A DNA stretch of 64,000 nt from contig NZ_FOIS01000003.1 of NCBI RefSeq assembly GCF_900110455.1, forward strand, positions 513,491-577,490, in the 5' to 3' direction. The stretch comes from Natrinema salifodinae. Its GTDB lineage: Archaea > Halobacteriota > Halobacteria > Halobacteriales > Natrialbaceae. The notes under the pieces were generated by a model. The model was not told where the DNA came from and made no database searches. It saw only the letters and a program-made list of their open reading frames with translations. A program made the position numbers and the translations under genes. Positions 8,591 to 62,930 of this stretch are shown here, piece after piece (position 1 is the first letter of the stretch; each line of letters begins with the position of its first letter).

Positions 8591-8923
8591 TTACCGCTCC
8601 GGAGCGCCGTACTCGACGTGGACCGTGGGGACGCTCGCGGAGTTAGCCGCGTCGTTGCCGTTCCAGTCGACGAGTCGGACGTTGGCCATCTGGCCGGAGA
8701 AGCGGAAGCGCTGGACGCCGACGTCGATCGCGCCCTCGGCGACGCTGCCCGAGACGACGGTTCCCTCGGCTACGGGATCGTCCGCCAGCATCTCGATGTC
8801 GCCGTCGACGGCGATTTCGAAGTTCGAGGGGACGCCTCGTCCGACGATCGTAACAAGATTCGGTAACGTCGTGTCGTTTGCAGCCGCGTCAGTTTGGTTT
8901 CGTACCGGCGTATCGCGTGCCAT
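8591..8923 (-). CDS. Conserved-looking haloarchaeal hypothetical protein
   Basis: 110 residues; I do not recognise the family. After a short polar N-terminus (MARDTPVRNQTDAAAND) comes a beta-rich stretch, LVTIVGRGVPSNFEIAVDGDIEML, then VSGSVAEGAIDVGVQRFRFSGQMANVRLVDWNG and a final VHVEYGAPER. The alternating hydrophobic pattern suggests a small beta-barrel or sandwich. No signal peptide or metal motif is seen. I used the ATG at 8923 because the longer reading frame upstream has non-biased codons. It is convergent with hemA. Confidence 0.6.
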   Translation of the reverse strand: MARDTPVRNQTDAAANDTTLPNLVTIVGRGVPSNFEIAVDGDIEMLADDPVAEGTVVSGSVAEGAIDVGVQRFRFSGQMANVRLVDWNGNDAANSASVPTVHVEYGAPER

Positions 8924-36837: not shown

Positions 36838-37047
36838 GCCCGATAAATACATTATGAGTGATAAGTGTCTTCTGCAGATACGTGTCCCGGTCACTCGTCC
36901 GTCGCGGTCGACGGCGTCGGCGATTGGGCCAGGTCGATCACGAGGACGGAGGTGCCGGTGTTGGGACTGCTCGTATCGGCGGTCGGGACGACGGCGGCAA
37001 AAACGAGGGTGATTTCGGTCGCGACGGCGCTCGGCGGGCGGGCCGCG

Positions 37048-38655
37048 TTAGCCGGAGCGGTAATCCTCGTCGTCGGTCGGATCGCGCTCGTGGACGTGGC
37101 GACGGTTGCTCATGTCGTCGTTCTCGTTCCGGCGCTGCCGGTGGCGCTCGTCACTCGAACCCTGCTCCGTCTCGCGGTCTTCTGTCCAGCTACCCTGCTC
37201 GGAACGCGGCCCCCGTTGCTGGTACTGCAGGCCGCCGCCGGACTGCTCGCGGTTCGTGCGGTGGCCCTGCCCGTGATCGGAGTAGCCGGTGTCACCGCGG
37301 TCGCGGTCGAACCGCTGGCTGTCGCCGTAGTCTCGATCCTGCTGCCCGTACTGATCGCCGCCCCGCTGGCGGCCGGCCTGGTTGCCCTCGCTTCGCTGAT
37401 GGCGGCCGGCTTCGGACTGGCCCTGCCGGTACTGGCTGCCGTGTTGCTCGCCGCCCTGCCGATAGTTGGTGCCGCTCTGCTGCTGGCGGCGTTCGCCCTG
37501 CTGGTGTCGGCTCTCGCCACCCTGCTGGCGCCACTGCTCGCTCTCGTCGCCACGGCCGGCCTGGCCGGCGCGGCCCTGGTTGCGGTCCATGCCGCCGCCG
37601 GCCTGGGTGTCGCGGTTCTCGTGCCAGCGCTGCTGGGCGCCCTCCTGCTCTCGGCCGCGCTGGGTGCCCTGCTGGCCCTGCTGCTCGCTCCGATAGCGGT
37701 CGCCGCCCTGCTGCTGGCGGCCCTGGTTCTCCGTTCGATCGCGACTCTGCTGGCCGCGCTGGCCCTGCATCCGCTGTTGCTGCATCCGATCCTGGCCGCG
37801 CTGGTTCTCCGTTCGATCGCGACTCTGCTGGCCGCGCTGGCCCTGCATCCGCTGTTGCTGCATCCGATCCTGGCCGCGCTGGTTCTGCATCCCGCCCTGC
37901 TGGAAGGCCTGCTCCGACTGATCAGTTCCACGGGCACTCTGCTGGCCGCCCTGGCGCTGTCCGCCGGACTGTTGACTCCGTCGGCCCTGTTGGCCCTGTT
38001 GCTGTCGACCCTGCTGACCGAACTGCTGCTGGTTTCGCTGCCCGCTGCGGTGTCCCTCCCGCCGGGCTTCGCCACCGTACTCGAGGTTCGCCTGGTCGGT
38101 CGCGTTGGTCTCGAAGCCACTCTGCTGGCCGCCCTGGTGCTGGCCCTGCTGACCGGATCGCTGTCGGCCCTGGCCTCGTTGCTGTCGGCCCTGCTGACTC
38201 TGCCGACGGTTCATCCGCTCTTGCTGGCCGCCCTGGCGCTGACTCTGCTGGCCGGACTGTTGCCAGTCCTGCTGGTCGCCGCGCTGTGACCGTCCGCGCT
38301 GGGGGTAGTCACCCTGACGTGGCTGATCGGACTGTCCGCCGCGCTGACGGTCGCTACCGAACGACGTTCCGGAGCCGCGTCCCCAGCCGGCGTCGTCGGA
38401 GGACGCGCCCTGCTGGCCCTCGGTTCGTCGTCGTTCTCGGTCTCGGTGCTCGGGCCCCTGTGCGCCGCGGTCGTCGCTCTCGCCGCGGCTGAACAGGCCG
38501 TGGAGCCAGCCGCGGTCGCTACCGCCCTGGCCCCGGTTCTGATCGCCCCGATCGCGTTGGTCTCGACCGCGATCCTGCGTGCGATAGCCGGTGTCGTTCG
38601 ACCGTTCGGTGCGCCCTTCGTCCCGGTTTCGGTCGGTGTCGTATCGGTCGTTCAT
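37048..38655 (-). CDS. Gln/Gly/Arg-rich low-complexity protein
   Basis: 535 residues dominated by Gln, Gly, Arg, Ser, Asp and Glu, with almost no hydrophobic residues, so it is predicted to be disordered throughout. The N-terminus is RD/RG-rich (RYDTDRNRDEGRTERSND), with one hydrophobic patch, GWLHGLFSRG at about 50. The middle is made of QQ/QG/RGQ clusters such as QQRMQGQRGQQSRDRTENQ; the C-terminal part is Tyr-dotted (QYGQQDRDYGDSQRF) and ends in DDEDYRSG. An exact 26-residue unit is tandemly doubled. The opposite strand is also open, but it would encode an implausible Leu/Ala-rich chain; third-position G/C bias and composition favour this strand. The composition resembles RGG/prion-like proteins that condense with RNA. 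No family is recognised. Confidence 0.72.
   Translation of the reverse strand: MNDRYDTDRNRDEGRTERSNDTGYRTQDRGRDQRDRGDQNRGQGGSDRGWLHGLFSRGESDDRGAQGPEHRDRERRRTEGQQGASSDDAGWGRGSGTSFGSDRQRGGQSDQPRQGDYPQRGRSQRGDQQDWQQSGQQSQRQGGQQERMNRRQSQQGRQQRGQGRQRSGQQGQHQGGQQSGFETNATDQANLEYGGEARREGHRSGQRNQQQFGQQGRQQQGQQGRRSQQSGGQRQGGQQSARGTDQSEQAFQQGGMQNQRGQDRMQQQRMQGQRGQQSRDRTENQRGQDRMQQQRMQGQRGQQSRDRTENQGRQQQGGDRYRSEQQGQQGTQRGREQEGAQQRWHENRDTQAGGGMDRNQGRAGQAGRGDESEQWRQQGGESRHQQGERRQQQSGTNYRQGGEQHGSQYRQGQSEAGRHQRSEGNQAGRQRGGDQYGQQDRDYGDSQRFDRDRGDTGYSDHGQGHRTNREQSGGGLQYQQRGPRSEQGSWTEDRETEQGSSDERHRQRRNENDDMSNRRHVHERDPTDDEDYRSG
37723..37878. repeat. Exact 78-bp tandem duplication inside the low-complexity gene
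   Basis: Bases 37723-37800 and 37801-37878 are identical over all 78 positions. They encode two identical 26-residue units in frame on the minus strand, and a third copy begins for 8 bases. Exact identity implies a recent or actively homogenised duplication. Confidence 0.95.
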
Positions 38656-38850
38656 AGTTGTGGCCGTCTCGTGGACCGTCGGTGTGGTTCGATCGCCGAT
38701 CACTGACTCGCCCCGATCGGCGCGCTAGTCGCTGGTGACTGTGAGACTGCGAGTGATGCTAGGCCGAACGCGCGGATAAATCCTGAGCGTGAGTTCGCGT
38801 GCAAGGCCGAAACCGGCCGTTAGACGCCACACATTCGCCACATGCAGCAC

Positions 38851-39855
38851 TCACCGGTGCCGCATCGACTGTCGGTGTCCGTCGCCGATTTCGTAGACCT
38901 GGCGGGCGTCCGTGTTCGGCCCGAACGCGAACAGGCCGCGGGCGGGCTCGTGTTCGTAGGTTACCCACTGGGGGAGGAACTGAGCCCCGATGAGCTTGCG
39001 GACGGCGAGCTGTTTGAGCCGGGCGTCCGGCACGAGCTGATCCGTCAGCCGGAGATCGACGATGCCGTCGAAGACGTACTCCGCCTCCGGGGGGCCGCCC
39101 TCGCCCGCCGTCGATGCCGCGGCGACGACTGGAACGAACCGCGCCTTACAGACGGTCGCCCGGACGTCCGTGACGAACTCGTGGACCAGCCGGTCCTGGA
39201 GGATCGACTCGAGTTCGTCCAGCGAGTCGAGCGTGACCAGGCCGGTCTCGGTCATCTCGAGGTCGTCGAGCGCGCCCCGGAGGCTGTTGATCAACTCGCG
39301 GCGGTCGCCGGGATCGCGAACTTCGACGATCGCGTCCTCGGCGGCCTCGCCAACGAACGTCGACCAGTCGTTGCGCTGCTCGAGGAACTCCTCGCGGTCG
39401 TCGAGCCGGTGGGTGAAACAGTCGATGATCCGCAGGCGATCGGTTTCGAGGGCCGGCAGAACGTTCCAGCCGTTCTGGTAGAACCGCTCGAGGGTCGCCG
39501 TCGGCGGGTTAGCGAAGGACATGACGACCGCGGGTTCGCCGCGTTCGAGGGCGCGCCAGGCGAGTTCGATGCCGAGTTCGGCCCGTCGGGTACCCTCGTC
39601 GCCCGAGAGGAGGAGAAAAGAGTCGGCGGGGATGCCGTTCGGGACGAGCGAGTCCAGCGGTTCGACCCCGGTGACGACGCGCTTGTATGCGACGGGGTCG
39701 ACCATCGTCGAGTCGTCGGCGGCGGCCTCGCGGCAGGCGGTCGAGCAGTACATGCCGTCGTCGGTCTCCTCGGGGTCGCCCGGGATCGGATAGTGACAGT
39801 GGCCACATTCGAGTGGATACTCGCCCGCAGGATCCGTCCAGAGCTGTTGTGACAT
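38851..39855 (-). CDS. KaiC/RecA-like protein with N-terminal zinc finger, degenerate P-loop
   Basis: 334 residues. Residues about 17-41 form a zinc finger, CGHCHYPIPG...MYCSTACREA, with four Cys. The rest is a RecA/KaiC-type core: YKRVVTGVEPLDSLVPNGIPADSFLLLSGDEGTRRAELGIELAWRAL, PAVVMSFANPPTATLERFYQNGWNV, LRIIDCFTHRL, ETGLVTLDSLDELESILQDRLVHEFVT (Walker-B-like), and RKLIGAQFLPQWVTYEHEPARGLFAF. The Walker A loop reads GDEGTRRAE instead of GxxxxGK[ST], so ATP binding is doubtful. It is likely a regulatory or scaffold homolog. The start at 39855 precedes the finger; the frame continues upstream without family support. Confidence 0.8.
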   Translation of the reverse strand: MSQQLWTDPAGEYPLECGHCHYPIPGDPEETDDGMYCSTACREAAADDSTMVDPVAYKRVVTGVEPLDSLVPNGIPADSFLLLSGDEGTRRAELGIELAWRALERGEPAVVMSFANPPTATLERFYQNGWNVLPALETDRLRIIDCFTHRLDDREEFLEQRNDWSTFVGEAAEDAIVEVRDPGDRRELINSLRGALDDLEMTETGLVTLDSLDELESILQDRLVHEFVTDVRATVCKARFVPVVAAASTAGEGGPPEAEYVFDGIVDLRLTDQLVPDARLKQLAVRKLIGAQFLPQWVTYEHEPARGLFAFGPNTDARQVYEIGDGHRQSMRHR

Positions 39856-40026: not shown

Positions 40027-41016
40027 ATGGACAGCGCACTCGTCATCGGCGGCACGCGCTTTATCGGCCGCCATCTCGTCGAGGAACTGCTATCACACGA
40101 CTACGACGTGACGCTGCTCACCCGCGGGAACCGCGAGAACCCGTTCGAGGGCGACGACCGCGTCGATCACGTCGAGGGCGACCGCACGAACGAGACGTCG
40201 CTCGAAGCCGCCGCGACCACCGGCGAGTACGATGCCGTCTTCGACTGCGTCGCCTACCACCCGAGCGACGTCCGCGCCGCCACTCGCGTCTTCGACGACT
40301 GCGAGGCCTACGTCTACGTCTCCAGCGGCGCGGCCTACGGCCGCGAGGAGATCCCCAAGCGAGAGGACGAGACGCCGCTGCACTCCTGTACGCCCGACCA
40401 GGCGACCGACGACTCGTTCGAGACCTACGGGAACCGGAAGGCGGAGGGCGACCGGGCTGTCTTCGCGGCGGCCGAGGAGGGCGTCCGCGCGATGGCCGTC
40501 CGCCCGCCGATCGTCTACGGGCCCCACGATTACACCGAGCGCTTAGACTGGTGGATCGACCGGGTAAACCGGTTCGATCGGGTCGTGGTCCCCGGCGACG
40601 GAACGAACCTCTGGCACCGCGTCTACGTCGAGGACGTCGCCAGCGCCCTGCGGATCGTCGCCGAAGACGGCCAGGCGGGCGAGGCGTACAACGTCGGTGA
40701 TCGGCGGCTCGTGACGGTAGAAGAAATGGTCGAACTGATCGCCGACAGCTTAGACACGTCTGTCGACATCGTCAACGCTGGCCCCCGCGAACTCGCGGCC
40801 GGCGACATCGCGCTCGACGACTACCCGCTCTACCGAGAGTACCCCCACGTCCTCTCGACGGCGAAACTCGCCGCGCTGGGCTGGGAGTCGACGCCGCTCG
40901 AGGAGGCGATGGACCGGGCCGTCACGGACCACCTCGAGAGCGATCGGGACGGCGACGAGAACGGCCCGGACCGCGAGGACGAGGAACGCGTTCTTGGGGT
41001 TCTGGATACGCTCTGA
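40027..41016 (+). CDS. NAD-dependent epimerase/dehydratase (extended SDR)
   Basis: 329 residues. It opens MDSALVIGGTRFIGRHLVEELLSHDYDVTLLTRG, the GxxxxIG Rossmann motif. DAVFDCVAYHPSDV, YVYVSSGAAYG, then ETYGNRKAEGDRAVF (a YxxxK-like catalytic Tyr-Lys region), AVRPPIVYGPHDYTERLDWWIDRV and VYVEDVASALRIVAEDGQAGEAYNVGD follow. It resembles sugar-nucleotide epimerases and reductases of the extended SDR family. The substrate is unknown. The ATG at 40027 begins directly at the fold. Confidence 0.9.
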   Translation: MDSALVIGGTRFIGRHLVEELLSHDYDVTLLTRGNRENPFEGDDRVDHVEGDRTNETSLEAAATTGEYDAVFDCVAYHPSDVRAATRVFDDCEAYVYVSSGAAYGREEIPKREDETPLHSCTPDQATDDSFETYGNRKAEGDRAVFAAAEEGVRAMAVRPPIVYGPHDYTERLDWWIDRVNRFDRVVVPGDGTNLWHRVYVEDVASALRIVAEDGQAGEAYNVGDRRLVTVEEMVELIADSLDTSVDIVNAGPRELAAGDIALDDYPLYREYPHVLSTAKLAALGWESTPLEEAMDRAVTDHLESDRDGDENGPDREDEERVLGVLDTL

Positions 41017-41029
41017 CGCGTCGCTTCGG

Positions 41030-41314
41030 TCAGGCCGGTCGCTCTACTCGCGCAGCCGTTCGAGCCGTCGCGCCGTCGACGGCGTCGGCGAGAGCCAGGT
41101 GAACGGACGATAGCGCTCGTTCGGTCGCATCGACCAGGCCGGCGAACGCGAGGACGAACCCGCTTCCGAACCCGACGACGGCGAGGAGACGGTACGTGCC
41201 GCGTGAGTCGCGGTCGGCCTCGTTTCCGTACCGAAGCGTATAGCGACCGTAGAGCCGTCCGCCGAGGTAACCGGCGGCGAGAGTACTGAGCCAAAGCGCG
41301 ATCACACCAGCCAT
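41030..41314 (-). CDS. Small membrane protein
   Basis: 94 residues with two hydrophobic segments: MAGVIALWLSTLAAGYLGGRLYG and TYRLLAVVGFGSGFVLAFAGLVDA. A short basic/acidic loop joins them, and a helical tail (ERALSSVHLALADAVDGATARTAARVERPA) follows. No family or function is recognised. The ATG at 41314 follows an AT-rich upstream stretch. It converges on the epimerase gene. Confidence 0.6.
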   Translation of the reverse strand: MAGVIALWLSTLAAGYLGGRLYGRYTLRYGNEADRDSRGTYRLLAVVGFGSGFVLAFAGLVDATERALSSVHLALADAVDGATARTAARVERPA

Positions 41315-42047
41315 ATTCCACAATTCAGACAGATGTTTTATAAATAGTGTTAAATTAACATAGGTCTGATCTAGAATAGAAATGGGTCTCGACGGAATTG
41401 ACGCTCCCATACGATAGCAGACGCTGGACCGACGAATCCGCGGCATCGTTCGTAGTCAACCGATCGTCCGTCGGCGGATCCGACCGCTGATTCCCGCGAT
41501 GACGCGCCTGGGAGCCGGGATTCGGTCCCAGATCAGAATACGGTGTACGAACGAACCCCGATGAGAGGAGCGACCCCTGATAATATTCACTAAGTGGTAG
41601 ATGTGTGATTATGACTGTATTATTATACATTCGGTGACGGAATCGTCTTTTTGAAACGAGAACCAACACTCAGCATCAACTCACAATAAAAATCGTAGGC
41701 TGGAAATTATACTCGAATATTATGGATATATGTGTTGCGGGGGCGGAGAATTTGTAAGTATAATTCCCACGTCGTTCTCCGATTCAGCCCTGATCCGGAG
41801 GAATCCGATACCGGCCCTGTAGCAGGGCTTGACCGGACGAAATTTGGGGAGAGCGGTTGAGATACTATTTACGCTTCGGTCATAACTCGCCCTATATATC
41901 TGAATTTGGGGATGAATACTAAGCAGATACTTCTATCGGTCGGCGATCGCCGCTCGATCGAGGATCGATGGATCCGCACCGAGCGGTTCCAACGGACCGA
42001 AGCCAGGCGGGCGTCGACGCGACGCGATCGGTTCCCGCACCGTTCGG
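41315..42047. other. AT-rich gap before the arabinose locus
   Basis: About 730 bases with much lower GC than the surroundings, especially 41315-41370 and 41575-41770. It contains a small hairpin (GCCCTG-TAG...CAGGGC at 41814-41828) and several TATA-like strings. Open frames cross it, but none has haloarchaeal codon bias, so I call no gene. It may be a decayed insertion or regulatory DNA at the edge of the sugar cluster. Confidence 0.5.
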
Positions 42048-60344: not shown

Positions 60345-61178
60345 CTAGAGGATCTGATACCCTCCGTCGACGTACAGGAGGTGACCGGTGATGTACGATG
60401 CGTCGTCGGTCGCCAGGAACAGGTACGGGCTGGCGACGTCCTCGGGCGTCCCCAACCGGCCGATCGGGATGTCCGTCTCGATCGCCTGGTCGTCCGGATC
60501 CGGCAGCGCGGCGTCGCCGGCGATGAATCGGTCGTCGACGGTGCGATCGAACTCGAGGTCGGGCGTTTCCTCGCCGAACGTGGTCTCGATGATACCGGGT
60601 GCGACGGCGTTGACCCGGATGCCAAAGCGCGCGAGTTCGAGCGCGGCGACGCGGGTGAGCATCATAACTGCACCCTTCGAGGCGTCGTACATGGTGTGGC
60701 CGAGTTGGGCGTACTCGGAGCTGATCGAGGCTGTGTTGATGATACAGCCGGGGTCGTCCGCGGCGAGCATCTCTCGGGCGGCGGCGCGACAGCCGGCGAA
60801 GACGCCGCGGACGTTGACCGCCAGCACCTGGTCGAACTCATCGACGGGCGTCTCGAGCAGCGATCCGTGGCGGTAGATGCCGGCGTTGTTGACCATCACG
60901 TCGACACCGCCGAACTCCCGGGCGGCCTCGACGACCGACGCGACGTCGTCGGGATCCGAGACGTCCGTTTCGACGAACGTCGCGCGGCCGCCCGCGTCCT
61001 CGATTCGTTCGTGGGTCGGTATCGATTCGTCGGCGTCTTTCGGTTCCTCGAGCACGTCGGCGACGACGACCGTGGCACCGGCCGCGCCGAATCGGCGCGC
61101 GATTTCGCGACCGATTCCGGACGAGCCGCCGGTGACGATAACCGTCTCATCGGAGAAGTCGTACGTCAGCGAACCCAT
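60345..61178 (-). CDS. Short-chain dehydrogenase/reductase
   Basis: 277 residues. Cofactor motif ETVIVTGGSSGIGREIARRFGAAGATVVVADV, with the Asp that favours NAD; then DVMVNNAGIYRHG, the catalytic Ser in NTASISSEY, and the Tyr-Lys pair MYDASKGAVMM. VNAVAPGIIETTFGEETP and YITGHLLYVDGGYQIL close it. The glucose-1-dehydrogenase-like group includes haloarchaeal pentose dehydrogenases, so a role in sugar oxidation near the arabinose locus is possible but unproven. Confidence 0.88.
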   Translation of the reverse strand: MGSLTYDFSDETVIVTGGSSGIGREIARRFGAAGATVVVADVLEEPKDADESIPTHERIEDAGGRATFVETDVSDPDDVASVVEAAREFGGVDVMVNNAGIYRHGSLLETPVDEFDQVLAVNVRGVFAGCRAAAREMLAADDPGCIINTASISSEYAQLGHTMYDASKGAVMMLTRVAALELARFGIRVNAVAPGIIETTFGEETPDLEFDRTVDDRFIAGDAALPDPDDQAIETDIPIGRLGTPEDVASPYLFLATDDASYITGHLLYVDGGYQIL

Positions 61179-61868
61179 ACGATAATTGGCGCATCTAGTT
61201 ACTTAATTATTACTTCGCCGGAGACGACCGGTTTTGTGCTGCCGGTCGACGATTGGGCCGCCGCTCTAAGAAGAAACATTACTTACATTGATAGTAATTA
61301 CTATAATGACCGAGGAATAGACACAACACGAATATGAATGCATAGTTGACTTTTGGTTCCGACTGGAGTGCGCATTCGAGAGACCACCGATTCAGATGTA
61401 GCCTATCGGCGCACAAATCCCATCAGAGGGATTCTTGCAAGAGACAGGATGGAGGGGGGCCTGGTTCAATAATCTCGCGGTGTTTCCGCACAATATGTGC
61501 CCATTCTCGCCAATTGCACCCCAGATTGTGTCTAATACATCGGATTATACAGTGAAATACGCACGTCCATCAGTTCGAGATGAAATGGAATGTTTCCGTT
61601 ACAACCTATGATATAGCACATTCCGTATGGGTAAATAGTCCTATAGAGAAATCGGGTACGAGTTTAACATACTGACTCCTGTTCCCGGTCGGACACGTCT
61701 CGAGAGTCCGACTTGCCGGATAAACGCAGTGATCCGACCGACTGTAACCTGAACGGCAACGGAGCGCAGCGGAGGGCAACGACTCACCGCTTCGGTTCGA
61801 CCGCCGGCGCTATCCGCAGCGGACCGCGAGGAAAAACACGTATATCCCGTCGGTGAGTGGGATCTGGT
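61179..61868. other. Low-GC region before egsA, no gene called
   Basis: About 690 bases of markedly lower GC, with A/T-rich blocks near 61195-61215, 61275-61325 and 61590-61670. I found no open frame with haloarchaeal codon bias; the short frames present have no recognisable products. It may be an old insertion scar or regulatory DNA. Confidence 0.5.
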
Positions 61869-62930
61869 ATGTTCGAAAAGTCGACGTGGATCCGCCTCCC
61901 GCGAAACGTCGTCGTCGGCCACGGCGTTCGCAGCGAGGTCGTCGACGTGATCGACGATCTCCACCTTCAGGGGCGGCCGCTGTTCGTCACAAGCCCGACC
62001 CCCCGCGAGGTCGCGGCGGCGCCCATCGCCGCCGACTTCGAGGCCGCCGGGATCGAGCCCGCGATCGTCACGATCGAGGAAGCGACCTTCGACGCCGTCG
62101 AACGGGTGATCGAGACCGCCGAGGCCGAGGAGGCCGCCTATCTCGTCGGCATCGGCGGCGGCAAGGCCATCGACATCGCGAAGATGGCCAGCCACCACCT
62201 GGAGATGGGCTTTCTGTCCGTTCCGACGGCCGCCAGCCACGACGGAATCCTCAGCAACCGCGGCTCCGTCCCGAACGGGGACTCCCGCCACAGCGTCGCC
62301 GCCGAGCCGCCGCTCGCGGTCGTCGCCGACACCGGTATCCTCGCCGACGCACCCTGGGAGCTGACGACCGCCGGCTGCGCCGACATTATCTCCAACTACA
62401 CCGCCGTCATGGACTGGCGGCTTGCCAAGCGACTGAAAGACGTCGAGTACTCCGAGTACGCCGCCGCGCTCTCGGAGATGACCGCCGAGATCCTCGTGGA
62501 CAACGCCGACCTCATCCGGCCCGGCCTCGAGGAATCGGCCTGGGTCGTCACCAAGGCGCTCATGTCCTCCGGCGTCGCGATGAGTATCGCCGGCTCCTCG
62601 CGGCCCGCCAGCGGCGCCGAACACCTCTTCTCGCATCAGCTCGATCGCCTGGCGCCCGGCGCAGCCTTGCACGGCCACCAGGTCGGCGTCGGCTCGATCA
62701 TGTCCGCCTACCTCCACGGCGGCGATCGGGGGATCTGGCGGGACATCCGCGACGCTCTCGCGAGCATCGACGCGCCGACGACCGCCGCAGAGCTCGGCAT
62801 CGACGACGAGACGGTGATCGAGGCGCTGACGACCTGCCACGAGATCCGCGACCGCTACACGATCCTCGGCGACGGGATGAACGAGCGGGCGGCCCGCGAG
62901 GTCGCGACGAAAACGGGCGTCATCAGCTGA
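61869..62930 (+). CDS. egsA: sn-Glycerol-1-phosphate dehydrogenase
   Basis: 353 residues. It reduces dihydroxyacetone phosphate to sn-glycerol-1-phosphate, the backbone of archaeal ether lipids. Family blocks: IRLPRNVVVGHGVRSEVVDV, AAYLVGIGGGKAIDIAKMASH (NAD(P) site), VPTAASHDGILSNRGSVPNG, then the zinc ligands in SGAEHLFSHQLDRLAPG and ALHGHQVGVGSIMSAYLHGGD. The start at 61869 is the ATG; a GTG four codons earlier is possible. Together with UppS it covers lipid-linked essential pathways. Confidence 0.96.
   Translation: MFEKSTWIRLPRNVVVGHGVRSEVVDVIDDLHLQGRPLFVTSPTPREVAAAPIAADFEAAGIEPAIVTIEEATFDAVERVIETAEAEEAAYLVGIGGGKAIDIAKMASHHLEMGFLSVPTAASHDGILSNRGSVPNGDSRHSVAAEPPLAVVADTGILADAPWELTTAGCADIISNYTAVMDWRLAKRLKDVEYSEYAAALSEMTAEILVDNADLIRPGLEESAWVVTKALMSSGVAMSIAGSSRPASGAEHLFSHQLDRLAPGAALHGHQVGVGSIMSAYLHGGDRGIWRDIRDALASIDAPTTAAELGIDDETVIEALTTCHEIRDRYTILGDGMNERAAREVATKTGVIS

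Follow-up and report, generated by a model that had tools for sequence, protein, structure and literature searches.

A predicted disordered, lysine-poor Gln/Gly/Arg-rich protein family of Natrialbaceae: a candidate for self-assembly at molar KCl

Introduction

Most condensate proteins have been studied at about 0.15 M salt; haloarchaeal cells hold molar KCl. Some low-complexity proteins, FUS among them, phase-separate again once KCl exceeds about 1.5 M, relying on hydrophobic and non-ionic contacts (PMC7889641), and such high-salt re-entrant phase separation is seen for Arg-rich chains and not for Lys-rich ones (PMC9705477). This regime is far from that of these proteins' own cells, whereas it is normal inside haloarchaea, 2.1 M K+ being cited, e.g., for Haloferax volcanii (PMC10906006). 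Among other low-complexity proteins, hydrophilins are defined by Gly content above 6%, GRAVY below -1, and mean hydrophilicity above 1 (PMC4190154). Halobacterial low-complexity regions contain on average 34% acidic residues, and the longest archaeal low-complexity region in a stringent survey, 390 aa, comes from a methanogen (PMC6821194).

Here, we describe a Gln/Gly/Arg-rich (Q/G/R) protein encoded in a 64,000-nucleotide stretch of the Natrinema salifodinae genome (the window; all coordinates refer to it). Judging by sequence comparison, this protein and its orthologues form a new, unnamed family of disordered proteins that is Natrialbaceae-specific in the genomes sampled. No literature on the gene was found, and the main text of a paper on the salinity transcriptome of Natrinema sp. 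J7-2 contains no identifiable entry for it.

Results

Composition and coding potential

A sequence-only reading of the window had described a Gln/Gly/Arg-rich protein of 535 residues, and the open reading frame and residue counts agree with it in strand, coordinates, and length (Table 1). The protein contains 120 Q, 96 G, 92 R, 46 D, 39 S, 34 E, a single V, and no K, C, or I, which corresponds to ~22% Q, 17.9% G, and 17% R, with 4.5% of aromatic residues. The pI computes to 10.4, the net charge per residue to +0.02, and GRAVY to -2.35; for eight neighboring genes of the window, the pI is 4.1–4.5, the Q content 1.4–3.3%, and GRAVY -0.2 to -0.65. The remark of the same reading that this composition is odd for a haloarchaeon is borne out by 15% of acidic residues, as against the mean of 34% in halobacterial low-complexity regions (PMC6821194). 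A GTG start 16 codons upstream, which would yield 551 aa, was rejected, as it is not conserved and family conservation begins at MNDR.

The Q/G/R gene encodes a genuine protein and evolves under purifying selection. In DNA-only alignments of 12 orthologue pairs, 91 of 93 indels are divisible by three, the two exceptions (sizes 1 and 2) both occurring in the most diverged pair, and substitutions peak at third positions of the Q/G/R frame in every pair. We regard this test as decisive, since it is independent of the protein alignment. In protein-guided alignments, dN/dS is 0.25–0.48 in the Q/G/R frame and exceeds 1 in four of the five other frames; the value of 0.5–0.7 in one antisense frame is the same third-position excess read in a shifted register. 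Two frames of the plus strand are open across the same DNA, both as long ORFs, and they could be taken to mean that the stretch does not encode this protein at all, either because the opposite strand is coding or because repeat DNA is open by accident. However, these ORFs are by-products of CAG, GGC, and CGC codons in the reverse reading, and the opposite, Leu/Ala-rich strand, named in advance as the coding strand that would overturn the prediction, fails on both indel periodicity and third-position substitutions. With the motifs, start, and promoter also kept across genera, we consider a non-coding origin of the frame vanishingly improbable.

As the sequence-only reading had proposed, the protein is predicted to be almost wholly disordered: the AlphaFold2 model, built on an alignment of 15 sequences, has a mean pLDDT of 45.1, 441 of the 535 residues falling below 50, and the FoldIndex value is -0.51. 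The sole helix of the model (residues 260–311) lies on a tandem repeat that has no counterpart in orthologues and hence is treated as unreliable. The expected lack of recognizable domains was upheld in Pfam, NCBIfam, and PDB. In Pfam, no domain and no LEA match was found for any of 25 family members, with one weak collagen repeat match in one member (E 0.006); no relative was found in NCBIfam or in PDB, where one weak profile match, to SWI1, was obtained (E 0.24). Both weak matches are compositional.

Table 1. Position of the Q/G/R gene, its conserved islands, and flanking features in the window
Feature	Position	Strand	Description and basis
Gene of the Q/G/R-rich, predicted disordered protein	37048..38655	(-)	535 aa + stop; ATG 38655, TAA 37048; ORF, composition, selection, orthologues
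Conserved start MNDRYDTDRN	38626..38655	(-)	Residues 1-10; orthologue alignments
Island 2 SDRGWLHGLFSRGESDDRGAQGPEH	38446..38520	(-)	Residues 46-70; aromatic/hydrophobic patch; present in 29/37 orthologues
Island 3 module FETNATDQANLEYGGEARR	38059..38124	(-)	Residues 178-199; 1-3 copies in most family members
Tandem repeat, period 78 bp, 2.8 copies	37669..37886	(-)	Within CDS; length-variable linker; not seen in orthologues
Island 4 QRWHENRDTQ...	37588..37632	(-)	Residues 342-356; alignment; family form QQRWHENRD
Island 5 GEQHGSQYRQGQSEAGRHQRSEG	37384..37452	(-)	Residues 402-424; orthologue alignment
Island 6 ...QSGGGLQYQQRGPRSEQGSWTEDRE...	37156..37266	(-)	Residues 464-500; orthologue alignments
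Island 7, C-terminal tail ENDDMSNRRHVHERDPT	37075..37125	(-)	Residues 511-527; alignments; motif unique in genome
Five-T run, possible transcript end	36999..37003	(-)	~45 nt past stop codon; read from sequence
Conserved putative promoter TGCACGCGAACTCACGCTCAGGATTTATC	38775..38803	(-)	Between KaiC-like gene and ORF; conserved across genera
TATA-like TTTATC	38775-38780	(-)	Part of conserved promoter
Two CACGC half-sites, 10 bp apart	38797-38801 and 38787-38791	(-)	Part of conserved promoter
KaiC-like RecA-fold ATPase, N-terminal Cys cluster	38851..39807	(-)	Conserved upstream neighbor, possible partner

Conserved islands and variable linkers

Alignments of 15 Natrinema proteins and of 25 proteins across genera reveal one design, in which about seven short conserved islands are joined by Q/G/R-rich linkers changing in length by whole codons. 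The orthologue length ranges from 256 to 759 aa (n = 37), a threefold linker variation at which the composition is retained. The start has the family form MNDRYDSDRR and is followed in the list of family islands by DRGWLHGLFSRGESDDRG; further motifs are DRGWLHGLFSRGES, GRHQRSxG, and SGGGLEYRQxGRRSEQGDWTE. The 19-residue module FETNAxxEANLEYGGEARR occurs once in Natrinema and often two or three times in other genera, and it is missing from three short or divergent members. The C-terminal island reads DMSNRRHVHE in the window protein and (E/D)DMSNRRHVH(E/D) in the family. The presence of this tail in all 37 orthologues is built in, as the set was partly collected by requiring RRH(V/I/S)H; among 15 Natrinema members not so selected, RRHVH is found in 13, and RRHIH and RRHVN in one each. 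No other protein of the genome carries the tail motif or the module motif.

The sequence-only reading had singled out one hydrophobic patch, GWLHGLFSRG, as a possible anchor. The patch is indeed there, but it is merely one of about seven islands, and DMSNRRHVHE is better conserved. Absent from 8 of 37 orthologues, in one of which (L034) it is cleanly deleted, while the C-terminal motif persists, the patch is weakened as an essential anchor. Thus, of the two traits suggested for a search among relatives, the odd composition is kept, whereas the patch is found in 29 of 37 and not in all.

The bulk properties of the chain vary little. Net charge per residue is between -0.02 and +0.125 in the 37 orthologues, and Lys does not exceed 0.5% in the 25 tabulated ones. 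Against shuffled sequences, all 37 show better mixing of charges (median z about -2.2) and less clustering of aromatic residues (median z about -1.0), these 37 tests not being independent because the sequences are related. Concentration of aromatic residues in the islands is not significant (P 0.2). Constant bulk properties combined with free linker length are the pattern expected if physical behavior is under selection.

Promoter and leader

Given the position between the KaiC-like gene and the ORF, the TATA-like box, and the conservation, the Q/G/R gene probably has its own promoter. The upstream element TGCACGCGAACTCACGCTCnGGnTTTATC is shared across genera and lies about 70–170 nt before the ATG; it is found even in Natrialba, where the upstream neighbor differs. 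Two members gave no match to it, and in a few the match is weak. The pair of CACGC half-sites suggests a dedicated regulator. With up to 3 mismatches allowed, the genome contains no further copy of the promoter, no chance matches being expected in the window, and a regulon sharing it was rejected for lack of a second site. A structured leader was not detected: the fold is no better than that of shuffles (z +0.68), and a comparison with Rfam gave no match.

Distribution and loss

Whole-genome and profile searches, together with searches of regions downstream of the KaiC-like gene, put the number of Natrialbaceae genomes with an orthologue at about 44 out of 125, spread over 13 genera, a count that takes in two C-terminal remnants without the promoter (G018 and G023) and leaves out weak matches in G116 and G120, where no family motifs were found. 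Within the genus (Natrinema/Haloterrigena), whole-genome searches yielded orthologues in 17 other genomes, while several Natrinema genomes have neither the gene nor its promoter. Outside Natrialbaceae, no relatives were found in 391 genomes of the class when the top three candidates per genome were scored, a procedure that very diverged members could escape. The distribution points to an accessory gene that was passed on mostly at the same locus, with repeated losses; given these losses and the restriction to a single archaeal family, its role is dispensable. The gene position between the epimerase gene and gltB is fixed across genera. An origin from a mobile element or virus was rejected, as no relative was found on plasmids or viral contigs and the genomic place is stable.

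Several damaged copies were observed. In G016 (L124), the promoter and both gene ends are kept and the middle is deleted; the KaiC-like gene is also broken. In G023 (L044) and G018 (L045), the C-terminal part alone remains, and the promoter is lost. The gene of G014 (L047) is split in frame at an N near position 8661, which is probably an assembly fault in a repetitive stretch and not a pseudogene.

The KaiC-like neighbor

The conserved gene order is the divergent epimerase gene, the KaiC-like ATPase gene, the Q/G/R gene, a variable stretch, and the glutamate synthase gene gltB. The ATPase matches general KaiC models alone, well below their cut-offs, and hence belongs to an unnamed KaiC subfamily; its Cys cluster has the form LECGHCHYPIPG...FCSTACRE. 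Of 60 genomes that carry the KaiC-like gene, 39 also have the Q/G/R gene, against 5 of the 65 without a KaiC-like gene, a figure confounded by kinship and linkage.

In G066 and G067, two genomes without the Q/G/R gene, the Cys cluster of the KaiC-like orthologues (L112 and L114, respectively) is preceded by a long N-terminal extension of low complexity, rich in His, Gln, and Arg (RYRRHQRQHQHHHQHQRGRR...), possibly a trace of fusion or a simple repeat expansion. Elsewhere in the window, two segments (41001-42000 and 61001-62000) have a G+C content of 0.54, clearly below that of the rest (0.60–0.73).

Discussion

The likeliest mechanism, to which we give a tentative preference somewhat short of calling it probable, is that of a multivalent chain with Arg/aromatic stickers and Gln/Gly spacers that self-assembles in molar KCl. 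Arg together with Tyr, Trp, and Phe would form many weak non-ionic contacts, partly in the F..LEYGGEAR, GGGLEYRQ, and GWLHGLF islands, Gln/Gly/Ser linkers would hold the chain fluid, and specific partners would dock through the SNRRHVHE tail at the C-terminus and through the patch in the N-terminal part. As molar KCl would screen charge attraction and strengthen Arg/aromatic association, the chain would self-assemble or condense, serving as an accessory, regulated scaffold in a salt-in haloarchaeon. By analogy with the proteins studied in vitro at high salt, a Lys-free Arg/aromatic chain in such a cell should fall within the high-salt phase-separation regime; condensate formation, and RNA as a partner, are plausible, and the protein is probably cytoplasmic. 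Consistent with self-assembly are the coding status and selection, the islands and repeat modules, the conserved, apparently dedicated promoter, and the predicted disorder, as well as the Lys-poor, near-neutral composition with well-mixed charges and dispersed aromatic residues, kept despite the threefold length range. On the other hand, aromatic residues are modest in number and show no significant concentration in islands, the Gln/Gly/Arg bias could partly result from slippage of CAG/GGC/CGC repeats in a GC-rich genome, and the repeated losses and the restriction to a single archaeal family make the role dispensable. In a bolder version, a composition free of Lys, rich in Arg, and close to neutral has been selected because Arg/aromatic non-ionic contacts are the only stickers that work at molar KCl; the protein would then be a lineage-specific archaeal condensate scaffold whose assembly follows the internal salt, and it would act as a sensor of salt or water activity. 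This version strikes us as rather improbable.

The same composition also suits a soluble protectant, the main rival explanation: a hydrophilin- or LEA-like, Gly-rich disordered chain that is induced by osmotic change or drying and, while staying uncondensed, retains water and protects proteins or membranes. Gly content and GRAVY of the window protein lie within two of the three hydrophilin thresholds, 16 of 37 orthologues lie within all three, charges are well mixed, and the gene's own promoter suggests regulated expression. However, the window protein has a mean hydrophilicity of 0.84, under the cut-off of 1, and on this ground it was rejected as a strict hydrophilin; moreover, a pure protectant would need neither seven conserved islands nor a copy-numbered module nor the RRHVH tail, and Pfam contains no LEA match. 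We therefore consider this explanation unlikely, if a serious competitor. In a second rival explanation, the disordered chain serves the neighboring KaiC-like ATPase as an adaptor or partner, its motifs recruiting or regulating the enzyme and its clients; the same-strand adjacency conserved across genera, the co-occurrence of the two genes, and the KaiC-like extensions in genomes without the Q/G/R gene all fit such a role. Yet Natrialba and Halobiforma keep the Q/G/R gene with no detectable KaiC-like neighbor, several Natrinema retain KaiC without it, the promoter is separate, and the co-occurrence count is corrected for neither kinship nor physical linkage, which makes the adaptor role decidedly unlikely. 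An Arg-rich RNA or DNA chaperone acting without condensation could be read from the Arg content, the RG/QRG clusters, the high pI amid an acidic proteome, and the tail with RRHVH; with net charge close to zero, charge-driven binding screened by molar KCl, and no RNA- or DNA-binding domain found, we rate it as highly doubtful.

Comparison with known systems

With the FUS-family prion-like and RGG proteins, the window protein shares Q/G/S-rich spacers, RG clusters, scattered Tyr, Arg in place of Lys, and predicted disorder; its composition and disorder prediction are those of a low-complexity chain whose stickers are Arg and aromatic residues. Unlike these proteins, the window protein lacks both a folded RNA-binding domain and homology to the FUS family in Pfam or PDB, contains more Asp/Glu, and is archaeal, residing in molar KCl. 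The Q/G/R family is a natural candidate for condensation at such salt, and about 40 orthologues differing in length, motif number, and natural deletions offer ready-made comparisons. Hydrophilins and group 1 LEA proteins are similarly very hydrophilic, Gly-rich, and disordered, whereas the window protein has Arg replacing Lys, conserved islands, no LEA motif, and the lower hydrophilicity given above. Finally, the acidic low-complexity regions of halobacteria resemble it in low complexity and in occurring in haloarchaea (PMC6821194), but here acidic residues are outnumbered by Arg, and the low-complexity chain is a whole protein, not part of one. Even without condensation, the Q/G/R family is a clear exception to the acidic rule for proteins of salt-in archaea, disordered regions above all.
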